Shown in pieces: positions 25,441 to 43,258 of a stretch of DNA of 64,000 bases (its first letter is position 1; every line of letters starts with the position of its first letter). The notes below the pieces were generated by a model. That model saw nothing but the letters and a program-made list of their open reading frames with translations, was not told where the DNA came from and searched no databases. Source of the stretch: an uncultured Paenibacillaceae bacterium. GTDB taxonomy: Bacteria; Bacillota; Bacilli; Paenibacillales; K13. Where the stretch lies: assembly GCA_913056365.1 (NCBI GenBank), contig CAJXLT010000009.1, positions 62,001 to 126,000 of the forward strand, in the 5' to 3' direction. The position numbers and the translations under genes were made by a program.

Positions 25441-26742
25441 TCAGCGCATACCGCTCACGTTGACTGAACGCTTCTTGTCGCGCTTTCGTACAGCTAATTG
25501 TTCCGCTGTCATGAGCAAGGCTGCGGTTGCAAGCGTGAGTGTAGCTAACGGCAGCAATGACCAGATACTCGCATACTCGATCAACACAAAGCCGAACAGC
25601 GGCCCCATCGCAGCGCCTAAATCAGATGCGATCAAATAAGACGCAATCACAGTTTGTCGCTTATGGAATGTGTTCATTCGATGCGCCGCCATAGTAGCTG
25701 CAGCATCCATGCATGTAGTCGCTGTCACTGCCGTGAACGTAATGCCTGCCACGATAATTAGCCAGAGTACGGATGGCAAGGAAAGCGGCAGCAGCCAGAA
25801 GAGAAGTGCGGCGGCAAGCAAGGACGCAACGAGCAGCTTACTCCTCATGCTTGGCAAGTCTCCAGCCCTTCCCGTCCAAGGTGCCACAATCGGTTCCAAT
25901 CCCCATCGCAGCGCGTGCAGCAGAGCGGTCCACATAGCAGCACTTAGACCGCCAAGCAACAGCAAGTGAGTGAAATCCTGCTGCACAACCCAATGGCCTA
26001 ATGTCGATTTCCACAGCCCCTGATAGAGCATGGCGATGAGCATGCCAGGCAATAACGTGTACAGCAGCAATTGCTTCCAGCCCCCGCGAAAGCTTACCGC
26101 ACTAGATGAAGGAAGCTCGTCATCCGCTTGTCGATCAACATCTTCAGCAGGCTGATCCCGCATGCCATACTGGACGAGTACAACACCCGGCAGCGCCGCA
26201 CAAGCAAATCCCACACACATCCAGAACGGTCCGAGGGTCGTCGTTAATACTGCGCCAAGCACCATGCCAACCAGACTGCCGATTCGAGAAATGCCGTTGA
26301 ATTGACCAATCAAGCTGCCTGCTCCTTGTCGCTCCTCCCCCCGCATAGCCTGCAGCACTGCAAGCTGCCCGCCTTGGCGGAGCAAGCTCCACGCCACTCC
26401 CCATAATGCTCTTGCCACTACAAGCAACCAGAAGTGCTTGAGCAGTCCGCAAGCTAATATGGAAATCACCGTTAGCATGATCGCAATTTGGTAACCGCGT
26501 ACTACAGAACCATTCCTGTACATGCGCTTCACTAACGGATGAACCGGAATGCGCACGAACCGATTCACAGCAAGCAGCACGCCTACTTCCCAGAGCGAGG
26601 TCAGCCCGAACGCCTCATAGTAGAGAGGCAGCACTACATACAAGGCAGAATCACCGAGCAAGCATAACGCCGTGACCGTAGCCGCCCCTTTCACTTGGGC
26701 TTCCGCATGAGGCACAGACGTCAGCTTGTCGGAACGCCGCAC
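25441..26742 (-). CDS. MFS transporter cotranscribed with the flavoprotein
   Basis: 433-residue major-facilitator protein with about 12 membrane segments, a central hydrophilic loop (QPAEDVDRQADDELPSSS) and the motif-A-like VKRMYRNGSVVRGYQIAIM. Probably an exporter, substrate unknown. The start is a GTG at 26742 that overlaps the flavoprotein stop by 22 bases, so the two are coupled. Their promoter region carries the same SigZ-type element as sigZ, so I infer a shared stress role, perhaps efflux of an oxidised metalloid or thiol-reactive compound. Confidence 0.85.
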   Translation of the reverse strand: MRRSDKLTSVPHAEAQVKGAATVTALCLLGDSALYVVLPLYYEAFGLTSLWEVGVLLAVNRFVRIPVHPLVKRMYRNGSVVRGYQIAIMLTVISILACGLLKHFWLLVVARALWGVAWSLLRQGGQLAVLQAMRGEERQGAGSLIGQFNGISRIGSLVGMVLGAVLTTTLGPFWMCVGFACAALPGVVLVQYGMRDQPAEDVDRQADDELPSSSAVSFRGGWKQLLLYTLLPGMLIAMLYQGLWKSTLGHWVVQQDFTHLLLLGGLSAAMWTALLHALRWGLEPIVAPWTGRAGDLPSMRSKLLVASLLAAALLFWLLPLSLPSVLWLIIVAGITFTAVTATTCMDAAATMAAHRMNTFHKRQTVIASYLIASDLGAAMGPLFGFVLIEYASIWSLLPLATLTLATAALLMTAEQLAVRKRDKKRSVNVSGMR

Positions 26743-27980
26743 ACGCCTGTCTCGGGCAAGTGAAGCTCCACCTTGCGGGCTGCTTCTTCATCACCCGCCA
26801 ATGCTGCAGCTATGCTGCGGACCTGTTCATAGCCTGTCGCCATCAGGAAGGTCGGCGCACGACCGTAGCTCTTCGCCCCGACAACATAGAACTGCGGCTC
26901 AGGCTGGCGGAGCTCTGCCTCTCCATGCGGACGAACCGTACCGCAGCTGTGTACGTTCGGATCAATCAGCTCGGCCAAGGCCGGCACGCTCTCCAAGGCC
27001 GGATCGGCTGCGACCCTCACTTCTCTTAGGAAAGAAAAGTCCGGTCTCGCCCCAGTATTGACGACAAGCTCATCCACATCACCTATCACCGCAGTACGGT
27101 GACCGGATAGACCGATAAGCCGGATGCGCTCTCCTGACTTCTCCACCGTATGCAGTCGGAACGGGGCTTCTACTTGCACTCGCCCCGATTGAATGAGCCG
27201 ACGTACTTGCGTACCTAGAGCTCCTCTTGCCGGCAGAGCATCCTCTTCACCGCCGCCAAATGTAGAATCAGCAGTTGGCCGGCGCAGCACCCAGACGATT
27301 GCAGTATCCGGTTCTGCCTGCTTGAGCCGATCCAGTTCCAGAATCGAATTAATCGCAGAATGACCGCTTCCGATGACTGCAACGCGCTTCCCCGCATATC
27401 GCTGACGATCGCGGCTTCTTACTTCCGGTACCCCATATGCAATACGATCTGCTAATGCTAATTCGCCCGTTGCAGGATTCCCGCCAGCACCGGCCGGATT
27501 AGGCGAATGCCAAGTTCCAGTCGCATCGATAATCGCAGAAGCATACAGCCGATGCAGCTCCCCAGCTCGCTCATAGCCGATCTCGAAAGGGAAGGTTGCC
27601 CTGCCTGCCGTCTTCATCTTGTCCATGCCGTATCGCTGCACGAACACGACCCGACTGTCTGTCACAATGTTCGGCCCCAACAATGGATGCTCGGCCAGCG
27701 GCTGCAAATACTGTTCGACCATCTCCGCGCCGGTCGGCAGCTCAGTACGGTCAGGCGATGTCCAACCAACGTCGACTAGCAGTGCTTCTGCCGCTCGATC
27801 TATATTGTATTCCCACGGTGAGAACATGCGGACATGTGCCCACTGACGTAAAGACTCTCCTACCGTCCGGCCTTTCTCCAACAAGCGGAACGGGAGCTTG
27901 CGCTGTGCCAGCTGCGCTGCAGCCGCAAGTCCTACTGGCCCGCCGCCGATAATTACGATCGGAAACTGTTGTAGATTCAT
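26721..27980 (-). CDS. FAD/NAD(P)-dependent oxidoreductase, monooxygenase-like
   Basis: 419-residue two-dinucleotide flavoprotein. The FAD-binding turn is IIGGGPVGLAAAAQLA (about residues 10-25) and the NAD(P)-binding turn AVIGSGHSAINSILEL (about 200). The central GTWHSPNP and C-terminal FYVVGAKSYGRAPTFLMATGYEQVRS fit flavin monooxygenase-like proteins; ArsO-type flavoproteins of arsenic operons look similar. Start ATG has AGGAGG upstream. It is divergent from sigZ and overlaps the downstream MFS gene. Function is unproven; its neighbours point to metalloid or thiol stress. Confidence 0.83.
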   Translation of the reverse strand: MNLQQFPIVIIGGGPVGLAAAAQLAQRKLPFRLLEKGRTVGESLRQWAHVRMFSPWEYNIDRAAEALLVDVGWTSPDRTELPTGAEMVEQYLQPLAEHPLLGPNIVTDSRVVFVQRYGMDKMKTAGRATFPFEIGYERAGELHRLYASAIIDATGTWHSPNPAGAGGNPATGELALADRIAYGVPEVRSRDRQRYAGKRVAVIGSGHSAINSILELDRLKQAEPDTAIVWVLRRPTADSTFGGGEEDALPARGALGTQVRRLIQSGRVQVEAPFRLHTVEKSGERIRLIGLSGHRTAVIGDVDELVVNTGARPDFSFLREVRVAADPALESVPALAELIDPNVHSCGTVRPHGEAELRQPEPQFYVVGAKSYGRAPTFLMATGYEQVRSIAAALAGDEEAARKVELHLPETGVCGVPTS

Positions 27981-28020
27981 ATACCTTCCTCCTGCCTAAT
28001 GAAATATCCTTGCCTCCTAG

Positions 28021-28048
28021 CAGACGGTGGTATACTAAGAAGGACGCA
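28021..28048 (-). promoter_or_regulatory. SigZ-type promoter of flavoprotein-MFS operon
   Basis: Minus strand TGCGTCC (28048-28042), 15 bases, CGTCTG (28026-28021), 40 bases before the flavoprotein ATG. Same motif and spacing as at 28074 and 28718. Confidence 0.7.
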
Positions 28049-28073
28049 TATATTTTTATTAACCCTCGAATTT

Positions 28074-28101
28074 TGCATCCAATCGGCGAAAACTGCGTCT
28101 A
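28074..28101 (+). promoter_or_regulatory. SigZ-type autoregulatory promoter
   Basis: TGCATCC, 15 bases, CGTCTA, 35 bases before the sigZ ATG. The CGTC -10 is typical of ECF sigma factors. Confidence 0.7.
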
Positions 28102-28136
28102 CGTTGTAGAGATTACATGCGTTGGAGGAGATTTAC

Positions 28137-28703
28137 ATGAACACCGAACAACTGTGGCAACAATTTCACGATCCGTTGGTGCGATTCGTTAATGGGCGCG
28201 TGCCCGACCCGGCTATAGCAGAGGATATTGTGCAGGATGTCTTCATGAAAATCTGGAAGCATCTGAACACCTTGAAGGATCAAGAAAAGGTGCATGCCTG
28301 GATTTACAATATTACGCGGAACGCCATTCACGATTACTATAGAAGAAGACGTCCGGCAGAGGAGCTGCCCTTGCATCTGGAAGCTGAGGAAGCGATAGAG
28401 GAACCGGATCTATCCAAGGAGCTGGCCGCTTGCCTGCGTCCGATGATTGATCAACTGCCGGATAAATACAGGGAGGCGATTCATCTCACAGAGTGGCACG
28501 GTCTCTCGCAGAAGGAACTGAGTGAGAAGCTCGGACTTTCCTATTCCGGAGCGAAGTCACGCGTACAGCGCGGACGGGAGAAGTTGAAGGAACTGCTCGA
28601 CGCCTGCTGCCATATAGAGGCAGACCGATACGGCAACATTATCGATTACAAGCAATCCGAGACAGCCGGGCAACCGTCCTGTGGGAAGAGTTGTCCATCC
28701 TAA
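28137..28703 (+). CDS. sigZ: SigZ-family ECF RNA polymerase sigma factor
   Basis: 188-residue ECF sigma factor. Region 2 is AIAEDIVQDVFMKIWKHLNTL with HAWIYNITRNAIHDYYR (residues 27-69); region 4 is LPDKYREAIHLTEWHGLSQKELSEKLGLSYSGAKSRVQRGREKLKELL (107-154). The tail ACCHIEADRYGNIIDYKQ and a terminal CGKSC place Cys at 157, 158, 182 and 186, a possible metal- or thiol-sensing patch. No anti-sigma gene adjoins it. Start ATG 28137 has GGAGGAG 6 bases upstream; an ATG 15 bases earlier has none. The promoter resembles those of two neighbours, so SigZ probably autoregulates. Confidence 0.9.
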   Translation: MNTEQLWQQFHDPLVRFVNGRVPDPAIAEDIVQDVFMKIWKHLNTLKDQEKVHAWIYNITRNAIHDYYRRRRPAEELPLHLEAEEAIEEPDLSKELAACLRPMIDQLPDKYREAIHLTEWHGLSQKELSEKLGLSYSGAKSRVQRGREKLKELLDACCHIEADRYGNIIDYKQSETAGQPSCGKSCPS

Positions 28704-28717
28704 TCAGGTTTCCGGTT

Positions 28718-28745
28718 TGCGTCCATTCGACGCATTGCGCGTCTT
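28718..28745 (+). promoter_or_regulatory. SigZ-type promoter of Cys-rich peptide gene
   Basis: TGCGTCC, 15 bases, CGTCTT, 44 bases before the peptide start. Third copy of the motif in 0.7 kb. Confidence 0.7.
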
Positions 28746-28789
28746 ATCCTGTGTAACACAAATTCGAATGGCTAACGGGAGGCGTTCAC

Positions 28790-28978
28790 ATGAACAAAGA
28801 AGCGAATCTAGTGCAGGCTGAGGAAAAGGTAGAAGGATGTTGCGGCGGACCAGCGCCAGCCGATACAGAAGCTTGCTGTGTAGCCGATGCGGATGCTAAG
28901 GCTGCCGGGGATGACGGATGCGGATGTGGAACAGAACAGGAAAGCGCGAAGGAGACGCAAGCGAGCTCCTGCTGCTAA
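28790..28978 (+). CDS. 62-residue Cys-rich acidic peptide
   Basis: Small, acidic and Ala-rich, with eight Cys in four pairs: GCCGG (17,18), ACC (29,30), GCGCG (44,46) and a C-terminal SSCC (61,62). No signal peptide. Such pairs could bind a soft metal or As(III)/Sb(III) as in metallothionein-like chaperones, by analogy only. GGGAGG is well placed before the ATG. It has its own SigZ-type promoter and a strong hairpin terminator directly downstream, which supports a real gene despite the size. Confidence 0.75.
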   Translation: MNKEANLVQAEEKVEGCCGGPAPADTEACCVADADAKAAGDDGCGCGTEQESAKETQASSCC

Positions 28979-28982
28979 TCGA

Positions 28983-29014
28983 ACAAAGGGGCTGTCATTG
29001 GACAGCCCCTTTGT
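28983..29014. terminator. bidirectional hairpin between two sigma loci
   Basis: ACAAAGGGGCTGTC and GACAGCCCCTTTGT form a perfect stem around ATTG, between the converging peptide gene and the ECF41 gene. Confidence 0.85.
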
Positions 29015-29051
29015 GCTATGTGTAATCGGCAGCGCTTTACCGCTATGCCTA

Positions 29052-29969
29052 TCAAATGTCCGTCTTGTTCCCCGCGGCTGTGTGCAATTGGGGTACGTGT
29101 ACAAGCTTCTTCGGATTACGGGTCATATAGATGTGCCTGATCTTGTCGCCCTGCCATTCGATGACCGCAATCGTAGTAAGCACGCTATCCTCTATAATGC
29201 CCACGCCCAACTCGCCGTTGACAAGCAGCGGTCTAAGCTCCAAGGTGCGACCTTGATATTTGGCTGCAAGCCCGTTCAGGAAAGCAGCCACGCGGTCAGA
29301 ACCAACGAGCGGCTTCACAGCAGCAGATACCTCGCCTCCGCCATCGGTCATGCAGACGGCATCCTCCTGCAGCCAAGCAAGCAGATCCTCCGCCTTGCCC
29401 GTCTGCGTAGCCTGCAGAAAACCAGCTGCCAGCTGCTGACGATGGATCGGATCGGCTTCCGGTTCGGGCAGCTCCTGCGCCAGCTTCTTGCGCACGCGGC
29501 TCATCGCCTTACGGCAAGCAGTCTCTGTCTTATCCAACGCAGCTGCCGTTTCGCCATAGCTGTATCCATGTACTTCCTGCAGCAAGAAGACGGCGCGTTC
29601 TCCAGGCGTCAACCGCTCCATCACCACGAGCAGCGCATAGCTGACCGTCTCTTCTAGAATAAGTCCAGTACTCGCTTCGTCCTCTAGCAAGCGAACCTCC
29701 GGCTCAGGCAGCCAAGGACCGACATAAGTTTCCCGCTTCCTGCGCGCCGACTTGAGCACATCCAACGACCGGCGTACCGTCATTGTCGTCAAATAGGACT
29801 TCGCATCCCGAATATCCGGCTCCCTTATTCCGTGAAGCCTGACGAAAACATCCTGCACAACATCCTCAGCCTCGGCAAAAGAACCTAACATTCGATAGGC
29901 AACAGCGAGCATATAACGTCGATACTCGTCATACCACTGTGGGAGCTTCGTATGTGTGTCCATCTCCAT
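29052..29969 (-). CDS. ECF41-type RNA polymerase sigma factor
   Basis: 305-residue ECF sigma factor with a C-terminal SnoaL-like domain. Region 2 is AEAEDVVQDVFVRLHGI; region 4 is LTPGERAVFLLQEVHGYSYGETAAALDKTETACRKAMSRVRKK. Two ECF41 marks are present: the linker YVGPWLPEP (82-90) and DGGGE (209-213) in the C-terminal domain, which in this group regulates the sigma factor in place of an anti-sigma protein. It lies 13 bases after the FAD oxidoreductase gene, whose promoter carries the ECF41 element. Confidence 0.93.
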   Translation of the reverse strand: MEMDTHTKLPQWYDEYRRYMLAVAYRMLGSFAEAEDVVQDVFVRLHGIREPDIRDAKSYLTTMTVRRSLDVLKSARRKRETYVGPWLPEPEVRLLEDEASTGLILEETVSYALLVVMERLTPGERAVFLLQEVHGYSYGETAAALDKTETACRKAMSRVRKKLAQELPEPEADPIHRQQLAAGFLQATQTGKAEDLLAWLQEDAVCMTDGGGEVSAAVKPLVGSDRVAAFLNGLAAKYQGRTLELRPLLVNGELGVGIIEDSVLTTIAVIEWQGDKIRHIYMTRNPKKLVHVPQLHTAAGNKTDI

Positions 29970-29981
29970 ACAGCATCCTTC

Positions 29982-31289
29982 CTAGTTAGTGTGATGCTTC
30001 AAGACGAGCTGTGCAGCTTCTTCACCACTCGCAAGTGCCGCATCCAATAAGTGCCCTTCGTTTCCTGCCCAATCCCCTGCCGCATATACGCCTGGCACAC
30101 CAGTCAACACGGATGGCCGGTTCAACACACCTCGCAGCTCAGTCGTTGGACTCGCATGGCTAACTACTAGTCTTGGCAAATAACGCTGGCGCACCACTTC
30201 CTTCCGCCATCCCGGCTGCATGCGATCCAGCAGCTTCTCTAGCAGCAGCCTGTCTTCTTCTTGGTCCGCAGCTTCCCCTGTATGATAGCGCATCGTATGC
30301 ACGACCGCATGCCCCTGTTGCTGCGTCAAGTTCGCCCAGCGTGAATGAACAGACAGGTAGAGCGGTTGTTGTGCTCCCAATGTGAACAAGCCTGTCGAAT
30401 GGGGCAGCCTGCGCAAGTGCACGTCCAGACATGCGGCTGTCATTGGCGTTAAGGCTGAGAGCGAACGCGCATAGCTTGCGGGCAAGTGCGGCCCGAACCA
30501 ATCGTTCAGCTTCGCGGGACTCACAGCGGCTATGATCTGGCGCGCATGTACGACTCCCCCGTTGTGTGTAAGGGTCCAGCTGTCTTCCAGACGAGTTACA
30601 TCAGTCACAGCACTCTTCGTTAGCAATTGGGCGCCTGCAGCTTGTGCGCGCTCAACCATCGCATCGATCATCGATTGCCAACCGCCATCCGGATACATCA
30701 CCGCCTTCTGCAGCTGCATGATTGCGGCGCCGGCATCTAACTTGTCTGCATCTCCGGCATACGTCCCCAATCGGCCCATTCCCTCCATAATATCTCTTGC
30801 TCGTCCTGCTACCCCGAGCTCGATCAGCTGTTGACGCCAGCTCTTACCTGCCGCCGCCTCCGGCTGCATCCGGCGAATACGAACGAGGCAACCAATAAGC
30901 TGGCGCTTCTCCATCCACCCCAGCTTACCGCCTAATAGCAAACCCATCGTACTTACGGCGGTATCCTGATCAATCAGCCAAGATATATTCATCGTAGGCG
31001 CTTTGCCATGCGGTCTGACACCTAAGCGCTCCAGCACACGCTCAGCGGCTCCTTTGCGGTACAGAGCGTGCGCTCCCAAGTTGAACACAGCTCCGTCGGC
31101 TTCCGTCGAAGCAGAACGACCTCCATAATGCTTCGTTCCCTCCAAAAGCACGACCGAACAGCCGCCTTGAGCTGCAAGTGCAGCTGCCGCCAAACCGGCA
31201 GGACCGCCACCAATCACAGCTACATCCCACTTCTTCGTTGCTGCGTGTTTCATTTCCTGCTGACCTGTTTCACTTACATTTGATTTCAT
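29982..31289 (-). CDS. FAD-dependent amine oxidase/desaturase-like oxidoreductase
   Basis: 435-residue flavoprotein of the amine-oxidase/phytoene-desaturase fold. The FAD-binding turn is VAVIGGGPAGLAAAALAA near residue 20, with GGRSAS and a C-terminal GVYAAGDWAGNEGHLLDAALASG. Start ATG 31289 has GGAGGT 7 bases upstream; the longer frame to 31424 runs into the promoter region. It is followed at 13 bases by the ECF41 sigma gene and preceded by an exact TGTCACA-N16-CGTC element, so the pair forms an autoregulated operon. Substrate is unknown; a role in redox or membrane stress is plausible. Confidence 0.87.
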   Translation of the reverse strand: MKSNVSETGQQEMKHAATKKWDVAVIGGGPAGLAAAALAAQGGCSVVLLEGTKHYGGRSASTEADGAVFNLGAHALYRKGAAERVLERLGVRPHGKAPTMNISWLIDQDTAVSTMGLLLGGKLGWMEKRQLIGCLVRIRRMQPEAAAGKSWRQQLIELGVAGRARDIMEGMGRLGTYAGDADKLDAGAAIMQLQKAVMYPDGGWQSMIDAMVERAQAAGAQLLTKSAVTDVTRLEDSWTLTHNGGVVHARQIIAAVSPAKLNDWFGPHLPASYARSLSALTPMTAACLDVHLRRLPHSTGLFTLGAQQPLYLSVHSRWANLTQQQGHAVVHTMRYHTGEAADQEEDRLLLEKLLDRMQPGWRKEVVRQRYLPRLVVSHASPTTELRGVLNRPSVLTGVPGVYAAGDWAGNEGHLLDAALASGEEAAQLVLKHHTN

Positions 31290-31334
31290 GGCCTCCACCT
31301 CCATAGCGCCGATTGAATCGGCTGTTGCTAAGAA

Positions 31335-31361
31335 GACGAGGCACCGTAGCTTTTTGTGACA
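31335..31361 (-). promoter_or_regulatory. ECF41-type promoter of FAD-oxidoreductase/ECF41 operon
   Basis: Minus strand TGTCACA (31361-31355), exactly 16 bases, CGTC (31338-31335), 45 bases before the FAD oxidoreductase ATG. It is the form I recall as the ECF41 consensus. Confidence 0.8.
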
Positions 31362-31369
31362 GTCCTTAT

Positions 31370-31813
31370 TTATATGAATGGCGAAGCAAGTATGACAGCC
31401 GTAATAAACACGATCTGCAGACATGTACGAACCGGCAAGCTTGGCACCTTACTGCCGCCAATCGTCAACCGTTCACGTGCCGCCTTCACATTAGCTGGAA
31501 ACATGGCAAGTAGCATCGTGATCAAGCCAATGGCAGCAGCTGTCGACAATGCTGGAATCATGAGCGCGACAGCTCCCACAATTTCCAAATATCCTGTCAA
31601 ACTCACAACGAAGCTAGGCCTCGGTATAGCAGCTGGAACCATACGAATTAAGTCTGGTCGACGCTTCCCCCAGTGCGCCGAAGCGGTCAACAGGAACATA
31701 ACCGCAACCGCTGCCCGCAAGCTCATCTGCCAATCATCGAAATAAGTAACTCCGATCCATCCTGTCGTCCGAAACAATAATAAAGCGCCAATAAGCGCAA
31801 TTAGCGGAGCCAT
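31370..31813 (-). CDS. DoxX-like membrane protein
   Basis: About 147-residue membrane protein with four hydrophobic segments, of the DoxX type: ALIGALLLFRTTGWIGV, SLRAAVAVMFLLTASAHW, GYLEIVGAVALMIPALSTAAAIGLI and LQIVFITAVILASPFI. DoxX proteins often sit beside ECF41 genes. Start could also be ATG 31834 or 31819; AGAGGGG precedes 31813 by 9 bases. It lies 42 bases after the TetR gene and is probably cotranscribed with it. Confidence 0.75.
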   Translation of the reverse strand: MAPLIALIGALLLFRTTGWIGVTYFDDWQMSLRAAVAVMFLLTASAHWGKRRPDLIRMVPAAIPRPSFVVSLTGYLEIVGAVALMIPALSTAAAIGLITMLLAMFPANVKAARERLTIGGSKVPSLPVRTCLQIVFITAVILASPFI

Positions 31814-32963: not shown

Positions 32964-33944
32964 TTAGTTCAATCCGCCCATAACCGGATGCGGGACATAC
33001 GGCTCCTCTAAGCTTCGGATCTCTTCCTCTGTTAACCGAACGGACAAGGCCGCGACGGCATCCTCCAGATGATGCGGCTTCGACGCGCCAATGATCGGGG
33101 CGGTTATCGGCTCCTTCTGCAGCACCCACGCAAGCGCTACTTGCGCTCTAGGAATGCCGCGCTGATTCGCGACCTCGGCTACCCGCTCAACGACTTGCCG
33201 ATCTGCCTCTACCATACCGTACAGCTTCTTGCCGAATTCGTCCGTCTCCGAACGAACAGTCTGCTCATCCCAATCGCGTGTCAGACGGCCGCGAGCCAAC
33301 GGGCTCCACGGAATAACACCGACGCCTTGCTCCTTGCACAAGGGCAGCATTTCACGTTCTTCCTCACGGTACAGCAAGTTCACATAATTCTGCATCGAGA
33401 CGAATTTCGTCCAGCCGTTCTTCTCCGCAGTATGCTGCGCCTTCATAAACTGCCATGCATACATCGAAGAAGCGCCAATGTAACGCGCTTTACCGGCCTT
33501 GACCACATCATGCAGCGCTTCCATCGTTTCTTCGATCGGCGTATGGTTGTCCCATCTATGGATTTGGTACAAGTCCACATAATCCGTCCCCAGCCGCTTC
33601 AAGCTGTGATCGATTTCGCTCAGGATCGCCTTGCGAGACAGGCCGGCACCATTCGCACCCGGACGCATGCGACCGTGCACCTTAGTCGCAATGACGACCT
33701 CATCGCGGCTGACGTACTCCTTCATCGCTCGTCCAACAATCTCCTCACTGGTCCCGTCGGAATACACATTCGCCGTATCGAAGAAATTGATACCTAGCTC
33801 TAGTGCCCGCTTCAGAAACGGTCGACTCAGCGCTTCGTTCAATGTCCAAGGATGCGATCCGCGCTCGGGTATCCCATAAGTCATACAGCCAAGGCACAAT
33901 CTCGATACTTCCAATCCCGTACGACCCAGCTTGACATATTCCAT
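32964..33944 (-). CDS. aldo/keto reductase
   Basis: 326-residue NADPH-dependent reductase of the YajO/Tas-like AKR group. The tetrad is visible: Asp and Tyr in NFFDTANVYSDGTSEE, Lys in VIATKVHG, and His in DLYQIHRWDNHTPIEETMEALHDVVKAGKARYIG. The NADP end is GASKPHHLEDAVAALSVRL. I start at ATG 33944 with AAGGAG upstream; the longer frame lacks a site. Probable substrates are aldehydes or ketones. Confidence 0.92.
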   Translation of the reverse strand: MEYVKLGRTGLEVSRLCLGCMTYGIPERGSHPWTLNEALSRPFLKRALELGINFFDTANVYSDGTSEEIVGRAMKEYVSRDEVVIATKVHGRMRPGANGAGLSRKAILSEIDHSLKRLGTDYVDLYQIHRWDNHTPIEETMEALHDVVKAGKARYIGASSMYAWQFMKAQHTAEKNGWTKFVSMQNYVNLLYREEEREMLPLCKEQGVGVIPWSPLARGRLTRDWDEQTVRSETDEFGKKLYGMVEADRQVVERVAEVANQRGIPRAQVALAWVLQKEPITAPIIGASKPHHLEDAVAALSVRLTEEEIRSLEEPYVPHPVMGGLN

Positions 33945-34138
33945 GTACAACCTCTCCTTCGCTCCGCAAAATTGTGGATAGGGCAACGCAGAAGCATAGA
34001 TAGATGGCTGCCCCTCTGTCCACTGTCAGTTTCATTGTAGCATACGTACGGAAGCGGACAGGTGCGGATGATTTATACAAGTAGACCTACGCTCGGAGAT
34101 GCTGCAGTTAGTCTACATCCATTCGTCGCACACCGCTA

Positions 34139-39343: not shown

Positions 39344-39766
39344 TTACTTCCCTTCCTTCACAAACTGTTCCATTCGGTTCCGGATCGCATCGCGCACCTC
39401 GCGGAACTTGACCATGATTTCTTCCTCTGTACCGGTTGCCTTAGCTGGATCGTCGAACCCCCAATGCCAACGCTCAGCCTTATCGTTGCGCACAACGGGA
39501 CAGTTGTCATTCGCATGACCGCATAAGGTGATGATATAATCCGCATTGGCCAATATATCGGGATCAATCACATCCGACGTATGCGCCGAAATATCGACGC
39601 CTGCTTCCTGCATCACTTGCACTGCCCGCGGGTTCAGCCCGTGTGCTTCCAGCCCTGCACTCCTCACCTCGTACTTATCGCCGCCAAGCTCTTTCAGGAA
39701 GCCGTCTGCGATCTGACTGCGGCAGGAATTCCCTGTACATAGAAAATATACGATTGGTTTGCTCAT
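39344..39766 (-). CDS. arsC: thioredoxin-coupled arsenate reductase ArsC
   Basis: 140-residue arsenate reductase of the LMW-phosphatase fold. The P-loop CTGNSCRS starts at the nucleophile Cys10, and Cys82 and Cys89 (LCGHANDNC) complete the redox relay of Bacillus ArsC. It reduces As(V) to As(III) for export by ArsB. AAGGAG lies 9 bases before the ATG. It is the last gene of the ars operon, 56 bases after arsB. Confidence 0.96.
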
Positions 39767-39822
39767 GGATATTGTCTCCTTTTTCTAATCTCAAATTGTA
39801 TTGCCTATGCATAACTCTGCGA

Positions 39823-41115
39823 TCAAGTAATAACTAACAGCCATACATACAAGCCTACTAACGTGATGAACAAGGTCGGTACCGTAAGCACAACGCCAAC
39901 CTTGAAGTAGTAGCCCCACGTAATCGTCACACCCTTACGCGACAGGACATGCAGCCATAATAGTGTCGCCAATGAGCCGATCGGTGTAATCTTAGGACCA
40001 AGATCAGACCCGATCACATTCGCATAAATCAGCGCTTCACGGATAGCTCCGCTTGTCTGCGTTCCTTCTATAGCCAGAGCATCGATCATGACCGTCGGCA
40101 TGTTGTTCATAATCGAGGACAGAATCGCTGCCAAGAAGCCCATTCCGACTGTCGCAGCGAACAAGCCCTCATCTGCAAACCGCTGTATGAGCTCGCCGAG
40201 CATATCGGTTAACCCTACATTCTTCAACCCATATACTACGACATACATGCCGATTGAGAAAACAACGACCGACCAAGGCGCTTCCTTCATAATCCGCTTC
40301 GTCTGTATCGCTTCGCTACGGCGAGCCAACAGGACGAAGACTAGCGCAACCGCTCCAGCAATGAGCGAAACGGGAATATGAACGAATCCGCTGACAAGAT
40401 AAGCGATCAACAGGATGCCAAGCATCAGCCAAGACAGCTTGAACAAGCGCTGATCCTTGATCGCTTCAGACGGTTGCTTCAGATGGCTAACCTCATACTG
40501 TGTCGGAATGTTCCTTCTGAAGTACAAGTACAGCACCAATAGACTCGCTCCGAGTGAAAACAAGGTCGGCACAATCATACGGCTCGCGTATTCTACGAAA
40601 TGAATACCGAAGTAATCCGCAGAGACAATGTTGACCAAATTGCTCACAACGAGCGGAAGCGAAGTCGTATCTGCGATGAAACCGCTCGCCATAATGAACG
40701 GCAAGATCATCGTATCCGGGAACTTCAACGCCCGCACCATCGCTAGTACAATCGGAGTCAGAATCAACGCGGCGCCATCGTTGGCGAAGAGAGCCGCCAC
40801 AGCAGCACCCAGCAACACAACATACACGAACATTAGTCTGCCATTGCCGTTCGCGAAGCGTGCCATATGCAAGGCTGACCATTCGAAGAAGCCGATTTCA
40901 TCCAAGATGAGCGAGATCAATATAATCGCCACGAATGCAAGCGTCGCATTCCAGACGATGCCGGTTACGGTCCATACGTCCTGTATGCTGACGACCTGAA
41001 ACAGCAGCGCAAGCAAGGCTCCGGCAGTAGCGGACCATCCGATATTCAAGCCCTTCGGCTGCCAGATGACAAACACTAACGTAAGTACAAATATTGCAGA
41101 TGCAAGTAAGATCAT
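39823..41115 (-). CDS. arsB: arsenite/antimonite efflux pump ArsB
   Basis: 430-residue ArsB-type exporter with about 12 membrane segments and characteristic runs [58 protein letters not shown] and [22 protein letters not shown]. No ArsA ATPase gene is nearby, so export is driven by the proton motive force. GGAGGCT precedes the ATG. It follows arsR by 10 bases. Confidence 0.95.
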
Positions 41116-41125
41116 AGAGCCTCCA

Positions 41126-41440
41126 TTACGAACATGAAATTGGGGTTAATTGCAGCAGCTTCTCCTGCTGGGATGGCAACTCATTCAAGACTGCTTGAAG
41201 ATAAGGTTTATCATCCGTGTTGAGTGAATAATAAATCCATTGTCCCTTACGCGATTCTTTCACAAGTCCAGCGTCCTTCAGCTTGCGTATATGCTGGCTA
41301 ATGTTCGGCTGGCTCGTATCGAGCAGCTCCACTAGCTCACATACACACATTTCCCTTTCCTTCAGGGAAGCGACGATAGTCAGCCGATTTTTGTCACCTA
41401 GTAGCTTGAAAATATCAGCAAGCTTCTCTAACTCCGCCAT
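41126..41440 (-). CDS. arsR: arsenic-responsive repressor ArsR
   Basis: 104-residue ArsR/SmtB regulator. The metal site is [13 protein letters not shown] (ELCVCDL-like, two Cys), followed by the DNA-binding helix [19 protein letters not shown]. As(III) binding would release the operon. AAAGGAG precedes the ATG. It lies between the two arsC genes in one operon; the probable operator is the 41911-41936 palindrome. Confidence 0.95.
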
Positions 41441-41457
41441 AGCTCCAACTCCTTTCG

Positions 41458-41880
41458 CTAGGTATCAAGCACATCCAGACTGTGCAGCAACCCCTTCACC
41501 TTCTCTTCAATCTGATCCCGCACAATCCTCACCTGTTCGATATTCTCAGTCGCCAGTGGATCGGGGAGATTCCATTCGAAGTTCTGAATGCCGAACGGGA
41601 CAACTGGACAGCGTTCATTCAATTGTTCACACAACTTGACAACTACATCAGCATTCATGAATGTCTTCATATCCAGCCGTTTCGAGGTATGACCAGAAAG
41701 ATCAATTCCGACCTCCTCCATCGCGGATATAGTCATCGGGTGTACGGATGACGCCTCAAGTCCAGCGCTTTCTACTATTACATGTTCGCCGCCATACCGC
41801 CGGGCGAACGCTTCGGCGATTTGACTTCTACAGCGATTTTGCATACATAGGAAGTAAATGCGCACCTGTTTCTTCACCAT
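41458..41880 (-). CDS. arsC: second arsenate reductase-like protein, ArsC family
   Basis: 140-residue LMW-phosphatase-fold protein heading the ars operon. The P-loop is CMQNRCRS (Cys12, Arg18), with Cys84 and Cys91 (LCEQLNERC) at ArsC-equivalent positions, so it is likely a second active arsenate reductase. It differs from the arsC at 39344 in the P-loop (MQNR for TGNS). Start is ATG 41880 with GAGGAGG upstream; the open frame extends seven codons more. Confidence 0.88.
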   Translation of the reverse strand: MVKKQVRIYFLCMQNRCRSQIAEAFARRYGGEHVIVESAGLEASSVHPMTISAMEEVGIDLSGHTSKRLDMKTFMNADVVVKLCEQLNERCPVVPFGIQNFEWNLPDPLATENIEQVRIVRDQIEEKVKGLLHSLDVLDT

Positions 41881-41910
41881 TGTCTCAATCCTCCTCTGCA
41901 TTTGTCAATG

Positions 41911-41936
41911 ATTATATAATTATTTACTTATATAAT
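41911..41936. promoter_or_regulatory. candidate ArsR operator
   Basis: ATTATATAA-N8-TTATATAAT palindrome in the promoter region between the ars operon and chrA. Confidence 0.5.
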
Positions 41937-42055
41937 AAAGTTAAGATATTATGAAGCTGCGAATTGTTGTTGTCACCCCTGCCCGAAGCTGTTACATTGA
42001 GAACGATACTTACAAGATACAGTGATGATCGTGTGGACAATTGGAGGAATACGCC

Positions 42056-43258
42056 ATGTCAAATAGCAACAGTCAAACATTCGGCAAGATCAAATCTCTG
42101 TTAGAAGTCTTATTCGTGTCAACGAGATTGGGTCTGACTTCCTTCGGCGGACCGATCGCCCATCTGGGCTATTTCCATAATGAATATATCAAGCGCAGAC
42201 AGTGGATGGACGACCGGAGCTATGCCGACTTGGTAGCGCTGTGTCAATTTCTTCCCGGTCCGGCAAGCAGTCAGGTAGGGATCGGTATTGGCATGATGCG
42301 CGCAGGCTTGATGGGCGGATTGGCTGCTTGGATCGGCTTCACGCTTCCTTCAGTCCTTGCACTTATACTATTCGCATTGGTTCTGCAAGGCTTCGACATT
42401 AGCAGTGCAGGCTGGATTCACGGCTTGAAGCTCGTTGCCGTCGCGATCGTCGCACATGCGATCCTTGGCATGGGTCAGAAGCTAACTCCAGATCGCAACA
42501 GGGTGACGATCGCTATCGTTGCTGCAGCGGTTGCCTTGCTATGGCAAACGGCATTCACACAAGTCGCCATTATCCTTGCCGCAGGCTTACTAGGACTGTT
42601 GTTGTATAGAAATCAGTCCGCAGACACAGTCCCTGCCATGCGGATTCCGATCAGGCGCAGCATCGCGATTGTATGCTTGATTGCCTTCTTCGGCCTGCTC
42701 ATCCTGCTTCCCTTACTTAGAGAGTTCACTTCCTTGCATTGGCTTGCGATGTTCGACAGCTTCTATCGTGCCGGCTCGCTCGTGTTCGGCGGCGGTCATG
42801 TCGTCCTGCCGCTGCTGGAACGGGAGGTTGTTCCGACGGGATGGCTGAGCGAGCAAGATTTCCTAGCCGGTTATGGCGCTGCCCAAGCAGTACCGGGTCC
42901 ATTGTTCACCTTCGCTGCATATTTGGGCGCGATGATGAACGGGTGGCAAGGCGCGGTCATCGCGACAGCCGCCATTTTCCTGCCGGCATTCCTGCTCGTC
43001 ATCGGCACGCTGCCGTTCTGGGATACGCTGCGCACAATCCCGAAGATCCGCGGAGCGTTGACCGCCATCAACGCAGCTGTCGTCGGCATTCTGCTGGCTG
43101 CCTTCTACAACCCGATCTGGTCTTCTACTATAGGGGAACCGATTGACTTCATACTAGCGTCGCTGCTGTTCGTCATGCTCGTCTTTTGGAAAGCTCCTCC
43201 ATGGCTCGTCGTATTAGCTGGAGCCTTCGGCGGGACTGTGATCGCACTTATTTCGTAA
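42056..43258 (+). CDS. chrA: chromate transporter ChrA
   Basis: 400-residue long-chain CHR-family transporter with two homologous halves. Half one has FGGPIAHLGYFHNEYIKRRQWMDDRSYADLVALCQFLPGPASSQVGIGIGMMRAG; half two has VFGGGHVVLPLLEREVVPTGWLSEQDFLAGYGAAQAVPGPLFTFAAYLG. Members export chromate. Start is ATG 42056 with GGAGGA upstream. It is divergent from the ars operon, making a small metal-oxyanion resistance cluster. Confidence 0.93.
   Translation: MSNSNSQTFGKIKSLLEVLFVSTRLGLTSFGGPIAHLGYFHNEYIKRRQWMDDRSYADLVALCQFLPGPASSQVGIGIGMMRAGLMGGLAAWIGFTLPSVLALILFALVLQGFDISSAGWIHGLKLVAVAIVAHAILGMGQKLTPDRNRVTIAIVAAAVALLWQTAFTQVAIILAAGLLGLLLYRNQSADTVPAMRIPIRRSIAIVCLIAFFGLLILLPLLREFTSLHWLAMFDSFYRAGSLVFGGGHVVLPLLEREVVPTGWLSEQDFLAGYGAAQAVPGPLFTFAAYLGAMMNGWQGAVIATAAIFLPAFLLVIGTLPFWDTLRTIPKIRGALTAINAAVVGILLAAFYNPIWSSTIGEPIDFILASLLFVMLVFWKAPPWLVVLAGAFGGTVIALIS

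Follow-up and report, generated by a model that had tools for sequence, protein, structure and literature searches.

SigZ of an uncultured Paenibacillaceae bacterium: a conserved promoter signature and a proposed role in metalloid response

Relatives of SigZ and comparison with the locus

The extracytoplasmic function (ECF) sigma factor gene sigZ and three promoter-like sites next to it are described here from a 64,000-nucleotide stretch of an uncultured Paenibacillaceae bacterium (GenBank assembly GCA_913056365.1, contig CAJXLT010000009.1, positions 62,001 to 126,000 of the forward strand; hereafter the window). The group ECF238 is also called SigZ (PMC9239204). The Cys-tailed factor CorE2 has been assigned to ECF238, with CorE itself unclassified under the new criteria, and about 85% of ECF238 proteins have no CXC motif (PMC8999054). 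Metal activates CorE (copper) and CorE2 (Cd/Zn) through a C-terminal Cys domain (PMC8999054, PMC3107203). OrbS of Burkholderia cenocepacia is an ECF factor that also senses metal through C-terminal Cys, but Fe(II) inhibits it (PMC9023288).

Like CorE and CorE2 of Myxococcus xanthus (former ECF44), SigZ has a short Cys-rich extension after sigma4 and a Cys in the linker, and the targets of the two Myxococcus factors handle the sensed metal (PMC8999054, PMC3107203, PMC9023288); those of SigZ are linked to ars genes. In the window SigZ the Cys residues are found in the sigma2-sigma4 linker (Cys99), at Cys157-Cys158 and in the tail (Cys182-X3-Cys186). It shows the C-terminal Cys extension of ECF238/CorE-like factors (Cys157-158, Cys182 and Cys186) and, as is typical of them, no adjacent cognate anti-sigma gene was seen at its locus. 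In contrast to the linker CXC of former ECF44 (CorE proper), it has the single linker Cys99 and a CC...CX3C arrangement. OrbS resembles SigZ in being an ECF factor with C-terminal Cys residues, but differs in its inhibition by Fe(II) and in its targets (PMC9023288). SigZ of Bacillus subtilis (TIGR02959 equivalog) belongs to the same family as the window SigZ, although the B. subtilis-group branch has neither the extra tail Cys nor ars neighbours. The ArsR-controlled ars operons have downstream chemistry (ArsM, ArsC, ArsB/ACR3, ArsI, ArsN1) in common with many sigZ loci; they are under repressor control, whereas SigZ is proposed to be an activating sigma factor, and the two occur side by side.

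No SigZ regulon, promoter or arsenic role was found in the literature searched, which did not include the paper defining ECF238 (doi 10.1093/nar/gkaa1229), where a predicted motif may be printed; the main text of a B. subtilis mercury transcriptome paper names neither sigZ nor yrpG. An initial annotation of the window had offered the locus as the best candidate for an undescribed system. As far as the literature searched shows, this appears right for the regulon and the promoter code, but not for the kind of factor, which is already filed as ECF238 (PMC9239204).

We consider it probable that the three sites are SigZ promoters and that SigZ, as a one-component sigma factor of CorE/ECF238 type, responds to a metalloid and drives a module for thiol-peptide and organoarsenical detoxification. 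The evidence comes from comparison between sequences: the promoter signature and its spacing, the family link, the classes of target genes, the association with ars genes and the co-occurrence of tail Cys residues with one type of target. The likely arsenic role, the Cys tail, the ECF238 filing and the division into two target types are points outside the initial annotation.

Three promoter sites beside sigZ

The elements of the locus and the ars cluster of the window are the following.

25441..26742, minus strand: gene of a major facilitator superfamily (MFS) transporter, with a GTG start inside the end of the flavoprotein gene
26721..27980, minus strand: gene of an NAD(P)/FAD flavoprotein (Pyr_redox_3), homologues of which were found among ars genes
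28021..28048, minus strand: putative SigZ-type promoter of the flavoprotein-MFS operon, TGCGTCC-N15-CGTCTG, back to back with the sigZ promoter
28074..28101, plus strand: putative SigZ-type promoter of sigZ, TGCATCC-N15-CGTCTA (direct reading and pattern search)
28137..28703, plus strand: sigZ, coding for a 188-residue ECF sigma factor (NCBIfam profiles)
28718..28745, plus strand: putative SigZ-type promoter of the Cys-rich peptide gene, TGCGTCC-N15-CGTCTT
28790..28978, plus strand: Cys-rich peptide gene, 62 residues with 8 Cys (CCGGPAP...ACC...GCGC...CC)
28985..29012, plus strand: inverted repeat AAAGGGGCTGTC-N4-GACAGCCCCTTT, 3' of the peptide gene (direct reading)
39344..41901, minus strand: arsC-arsR-arsB-arsC cluster, 11 kb from the sigZ locus

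The identity of SigZ is supported by two full-length profile matches exceeding the curated NCBIfam cut-offs (TIGR02959, 222.3 bits against 168.65; NF007215, 231.7 against 212). The initial annotation had placed TGC[A/G]TCC-N15-CGTCT before sigZ, the peptide gene and the divergent flavoprotein-MFS pair, with a spacer of exactly 15 and a distance of 35-44 bases to the start codon, and all of this stands. The exact pattern TGCRTCC-N15-CGTCT is present at 28074-28100 (+), 28718-28744 (+) and 28048-28022 (-), with the last base of the six-base second box immediately beyond each of these ranges, and the end of CGTCTN is separated from the start codon by 35 (sigZ, ATG 28137), 44 (peptide, ATG 28790) and 40 bases (flavoprotein, ATG 27980) by direct count. 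CGTC is a common core of ECF -10 boxes.

The three sites lie within 0.72 kb, against an expectation of 0.02 for the window (none of 100 shuffles had three). The whole 4.65-Mb genome contains five exact copies, three of them at the SigZ locus (reversed-pattern control, two), so the motif is not equally common in coding DNA of this genome. The other two copies are antisense, inside stop-free frames of 297 and 238 codons; taken as the background rate, they give a Poisson P of ~5e-12 for three copies in 723 bases. The relaxed form TGCRTCY-N15-CGTC was found 18 times in the genome (control, 11), and 13 of the 15 matches outside the SigZ locus fall in stop-free frames of at least 238 codons. Of the remaining two, one has no same-strand open reading frame (ORF) of at least 70 residues starting within 500 bases, and the other precedes a TTG-started ORF of 337 residues. 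None of these 15 matches was convincing, and a further SigZ regulon elsewhere in the genome was rejected.

No sigma-70-like promoter was found in 27960-29080. The inverted repeat at 28985..29012 is the likely terminator of the peptide gene and was not among the elements output by the scan that also sought sigma-70-like promoters. The 62-residue peptide, presumed to bind metalloids through its thiols, matched no Pfam or NCBIfam family at E 0.01 and hence no described bacterial metallothionein profile. In agreement with the initial annotation, no anti-sigma gene adjoining sigZ was seen in the window, the neighbours being the peptide gene, the flavoprotein-MFS pair and a SigJ-like ECF factor gene at 29052-29969. 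The SigJ-like factor has a weak SnoaL-like match in its C-terminal part, and its same-strand neighbour is a gene for an amine-oxidase/phytoene-desaturase-like flavoprotein (29052-31424 for the two).

Promoter signature across sigZ loci

Of the 392 genomes of an order sample, 43 gave a SigZ match; a phylum sample of 398 genomes gave 23 at E 1e-40, of which 15 exceed the family cut-off. The genome of the window is present in both samples, and extra loci came from a scan of named genomes. We counted 85 sigZ loci (the window, 16 from named genomes, 46 from the order sample, 20 from the phylum sample and two short ones, with L211 and L212 counted in short form) and, as a control, 63 loci with other ECF genes, taken from the scan of named genomes; these are mostly from other taxa, so that part of any contrast may be taxonomic. 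The phylum-sample matches under the family cut-off number nine in eight genomes (G402, G414, G437, G482, G486, G537, G574 and two of G594), all kept except that of G537; L191 of the order sample is likewise under the cut-off. The counts of spacers, target classes, tail Cys, ars genes and sites leave out L086-L091, L116-L145, L192-L209, L213 and L214 (shorter copies of counted loci), L092-L115 (other ECF genes with short flanks) and L210 (SigZ of G537, with a site before a DUF2703-like ORF). L046, a partial match in which no SigZ ORF could be identified, enters none of the counts.

The initial annotation had proposed a search of relatives, and this search extends the pattern well beyond the window. 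The exact form was detected in 50 of the 84 other sigZ loci and TGCRTCY-N15-CGTC, which admits C or T at position 7 and drops the final T, in 70, compared with none of the 63 control loci. The exact form reversed occurred in 2/84 loci, and the exact boxes at spacers of 13 and 17 in none. Spacing is nearly fixed: a scan from 8 to 23 over all 85 loci gave 85 matches at 15, seven at 16 and from zero to seven at each other spacing. TGCRTCY-N15/16-CGTC is thus a signature of the SigZ family before sigZ and/or its targets, and by sequence the three window sites belong to the proposed SigZ regulon, which supports the initial interpretation of one promoter class read by SigZ.

The site precedes sigZ itself in 11 loci (L146, L150, L154, L156, L157, L158, L161, L165, L167, L171 and the window). 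L167 and L171, from two genomes of one genus, have the divergent sigZ/flavoprotein layout with back-to-back promoters and a spacer of 16 on both sides, which suggests that a single factor reads both promoters. Across the order sample, TGCRTCYWTT-N12-CGTC was present in 35 of 43 genomes with SigZ versus 128 of 349 without (Fisher 3e-8; counts read from the table by eye), a comparison which is not independent of the relatives, from which WTT was taken, and which is weakened if SigZ-containing genomes are larger. In the frame test, 33 of 82 site matches in other sigZ loci fall in stop-free frames of at least 200 codons; at face value this speaks against a purely intergenic motif, but the test is of little use because the frame of the target gene often remains open upstream.

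The reversed box order CGTC-N14-TGCRTCY was seen 14 times in the 85 loci versus 0-4 times at other spacings, perhaps as orthologous coding copies. Sites resembling the SigZ-type promoters of G200 and G099 are present at G135:C190:5728-5753 and G111:C51:20503-20528 in genomes with no SigZ called; SigZ may have been lost there or missed in an incomplete assembly, or another factor may read the sites.

Two target types and the SigZ cysteines

The genes behind the sites, classed by regular expressions, are of two types. Type one (45 Cys-target loci) comprises sigZ, three kinds of Cys-rich peptide, ArsM, DUF2703 proteins and flavoproteins like that of the window, and type two (26 loci) has an aldo/keto reductase (AKR) or ThuA-like gene. 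Two of the Cys-target loci, L156 and L165, are such solely through their sigZ promoter, and Marinifilum loci L009, L011, L014, L015 and L016 were placed in the Cys-peptide class by hand. The first kind of peptide is the CCGGPAP kind of the window, also present behind the same promoter in L150, L154, L155, L157 and L158, the second is a DCC kind of ~40-48 residues, and the third, of 83-84 residues, is from Marinifilum and has no Pfam or NCBIfam match, like the window peptide. The Marinifilum peptide was read in L009, L012 and L021, clustered in L009, L010, L012, L015 and L021, and assigned by orthology in L011, L014 and L016. ArsM is encoded behind the site in L146, L147, L161, L163, L166 and L220.

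The second target type includes B. spizizenii and B. inaquosorum. In both, sigZ and an aldo/keto reductase gene are divergent and a relaxed site with T at position 7 lies in between; for B. subtilis itself, the control genomes gave solely a family match. In the window, an aldo/keto reductase gene at 32964-33986, 4.3 kb from sigZ, falls in the same cluster as the AKR targets and has no SigZ-type site.

Target type goes together with the Cys residues of SigZ. Cys157-Cys158 is kept in all 82 aligned SigZ proteins, whereas at least two further tail Cys are found in 45/45 Cys-target loci versus 2/26 AKR/ThuA loci, and a CxnC tail pair in 38/45 versus 0/26 (24/27 versus 0/19 after collapsing at 80% identity; L182, with an interrupted sigZ and no tail read, is counted as lacking Cys). 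The linker Cys99 is less strictly distributed (38 of 44 aligned Cys-target proteins versus 10 of 25 of the AKR/ThuA type; L020, L182 and L212 were excluded from this count and from the tree, and L046 is also absent from the alignment). In the AKR/ThuA type of SigZ the extra pair is missing, while the CC and the promoter are kept.

A tree of 82 SigZ cores without the tail, rooted at its midpoint and with many weak deep forks, requires three changes for the AKR/ThuA label, at least two of them forced by well-supported branches, and separates the two B. subtilis-group rows from the rest, within a broader, mostly Cys-tailed family. The Cys-tailed state is therefore likely ancestral, judging from these sequences. 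A structural model of moderate quality (predicted local distance difference test, pLDDT, 75; last three blocks 64, 58 and 52) predicts that the last sigma4 helix ends in the CC and that a beta-hairpin comes next, before the tail; a fold search with it returned sigma factors and their partners among the best 50 matches and nothing on the tail.

Association with arsenic resistance genes

At least one of arsM, arsC, acr3, arsI, arsP, arsB, arsN1, arsA and arsD was found in 35 of 85 sigZ loci, compared with 0/63 controls (Fisher 8.9e-11), and arsR-profile matches in 28/85 versus 1/63. One representative each of ArsM, ArsC, ACR3, ArsB, ArsA, ArsD, ArsI/CadI and ArsN1 exceeds the NCBIfam cut-off, and ArsP the Pfam one. 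By class, with profiles excluding arsR and arsO, ars genes are present in 26/45 Cys-target, 1/26 AKR/ThuA (an arsA-profile match in L178) and 8/14 unassigned loci; these numbers depend on the gene set, clusters with arsR and arsO giving 28/45 versus 0/26.

Relatives of the window flavoprotein adjoin ars genes in L154, L167 and L171. Four plasmid records with homologues of it show ars neighbours in Lysinibacillus, Bacillus arachidis and Nitrobacter, and an MFS gene plus ArsN1 in Cytobacillus; the window MFS protein is 35% identical over 370 residues to this Cytobacillus transporter beside the flavoprotein homologue and arsN1. In a Rhodococcus ars cluster, DUF2703 and arsO genes are arsenate-induced (PMC6514093). 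The plasmids yielded no match to the Cys-rich peptide, and the small ORFs beside the flavoprotein homologues are not Cys-rich. SigZ itself was found in seven plasmid records at E 1e-30, four of which were examined: its neighbours are an AKR gene in Priestia, arsC and ACR3 in Hymenobacter, arsR- and flavoprotein-profile matches in Nonomuraea and, in Vibrio, no more than a weak arsR-profile match. In the Nonomuraea record (Actinomycetota), a site close upstream of sigZ is followed after 37 bases by a 34-residue CC-rich ORF, whose start is a candidate since a longer frame of 244 codons starts five bases after the site.

A MarR-like regulator, possibly a second Cys-based arsenic regulator, is encoded at L147:4657-5124 and in 11 other sigZ loci, in some beside ArsO-like genes, with the motif NKNCC in L146, L147, L163 and L171. 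A dual-specificity-phosphatase-like protein (L158:5158-5592 and six other sigZ loci) is encoded within runs of ars genes next to sigZ.

Proposed mechanism and alternative explanations

From these comparisons, we infer that SigZ reads the sites, and on the same basis propose a ligand, a sign of response and functions for the peptide, flavoprotein and MFS protein. The SigZ thiols (Cys99, Cys157-Cys158 and Cys182/Cys186) would serve to bind a thiophilic metalloid, for which As(III) and trivalent organoarsenicals are the likeliest candidates; by analogy with CorE and CorE2, metal-type activation through thiols is most likely. Metalloid-bound SigZ would be competent with RNA polymerase at TGCRTCY-N15-CGTC and would raise its own expression through the sigZ promoter. 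The Cys-rich peptide, switched on by SigZ, would buffer the metalloid, and the flavoprotein and the MFS exporter would, most likely, oxidize and expel an organoarsenical. As the genome yielded no ArsM, the organoarsenicals handled by the flavoprotein-MFS pair would come from other organisms, and with no SigZ-type site before the window ars cluster SigZ would run beside the ars operon, not over it.

For the family as a whole, we lean towards the view that most SigZ proteins are arsenic-sensing one-component sigma factors that share one conserved promoter code in Bacillota, Bacteroidota, Acidobacteriota and Actinomycetota, forming an activating branch beside ArsR, and that the orphan B. subtilis SigZ is derived, having lost the sensing Cys pair and been re-aimed at an aldo/keto reductase. 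SigZ, so far an ECF factor without a regulon in the literature searched, would thereby gain a testable promoter code, a likely signal and a target set. Arsenic detoxification, usually described through ArsR repression, might have an additional activating layer. The comparison also draws attention to small Cys-rich peptide families, those of the window and Marinifilum having no Pfam or NCBIfam match, and, because tail Cys and target type vary together, the family provides a natural experiment on signal change in a sigma factor.

Several observations weigh against this proposal, besides the taxonomic make-up of the control and the genome sizes mentioned above. Antimony, bismuth, cadmium or electrophiles suit the SigZ thiols equally. 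Within the examined flanks, ars genes accompany only 35/85 sigZ and 26/45 Cys-target loci and are absent from all eight Marinifilum loci. Fourteen of the 85 loci have no classed target, 12 of them lacking an N15 or N16 site and L189 and L224 having a site before unclassable ORFs, although eight of the 14 do have ars genes. Cys-tailed SigZ relatives from Vibrio and Hymenobacter have no site in the stretches examined. The window flavoprotein scores 42 bits with the ArsO profile (NF040505; cut-off 425) and so is not an ArsO by this measure, and the Nitrobacter MFS protein beside a flavoprotein homologue has no detectable relation to that of the window. The genome yielded no ArsM at E 1e-15 (and one ACR3 match, under the cut-off), and the cluster at 39344..41901 has no SigZ-type site before it.

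If the sites are SigZ promoters, the signal could be another soft metal (Sb, Bi, Cd, Hg), an electrophile or a thiol oxidant, with the ars linkage reflecting the usual clustering of resistance genes. This would fit the copper and Cd/Zn sensing of CorE and CorE2 through C-terminal Cys domains (PMC8999054, PMC3107203), the CC and promoter kept by AKR/ThuA-type SigZ without the extra pair, and the 19 of 45 Cys-target loci without any scored ars gene. A divergent gene beyond the window ars cluster, which we take to encode a chromate-transporter-like protein, points in the same direction. However, many recurrent clusters of sigZ neighbours are ars families (conserved Marinifilum flanks aside), ArsM itself follows the site in the six loci named above and no control locus has a scored ars gene, which makes a non-arsenic signal unlikely in our judgement. 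Constitutive competence of SigZ, with mere autoregulation, a Cys tail for redox or stability and induction from ArsR/MarR repressors at the same loci, would account for the arsR-profile matches in 28 loci, the Cys-containing MarR in 12/85 and the site before sigZ in 11. We regard it as quite improbable, as no arsR or marR6 profile match occurs within 6 kb either side of the window sigZ (nearest, 35014) and the extra Cys go with detoxification targets.

Reading of the motif by another factor, such as the neighbouring SigJ-like protein, or its use as a repressor operator seems highly improbable. The SigJ-like gene at 29052-29969, the commonness of CGTC as an ECF -10 core and the related pattern in 128/349 genomes with no SigZ called, in many cases perhaps by chance, favour another reader; but the motif tracks sigZ in several phyla amid varied neighbours and is absent from all 63 other ECF loci, and the two boxes do not form an inverted repeat by direct reading. 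Chance similarity of the three sites has nothing in its favour beyond the general abundance of CGTC and is practically negligible, considering the window expectation of 0.02, the Poisson value and the same sites in 70/84 other loci. The proposal of a metalloid-responsive SigZ thus remains the preferred one. As a minor observation, the ars cluster and the divergent chromate-transporter-like gene together occupy 39344-43258, forming a wider metal(loid)-resistance stretch in the window.

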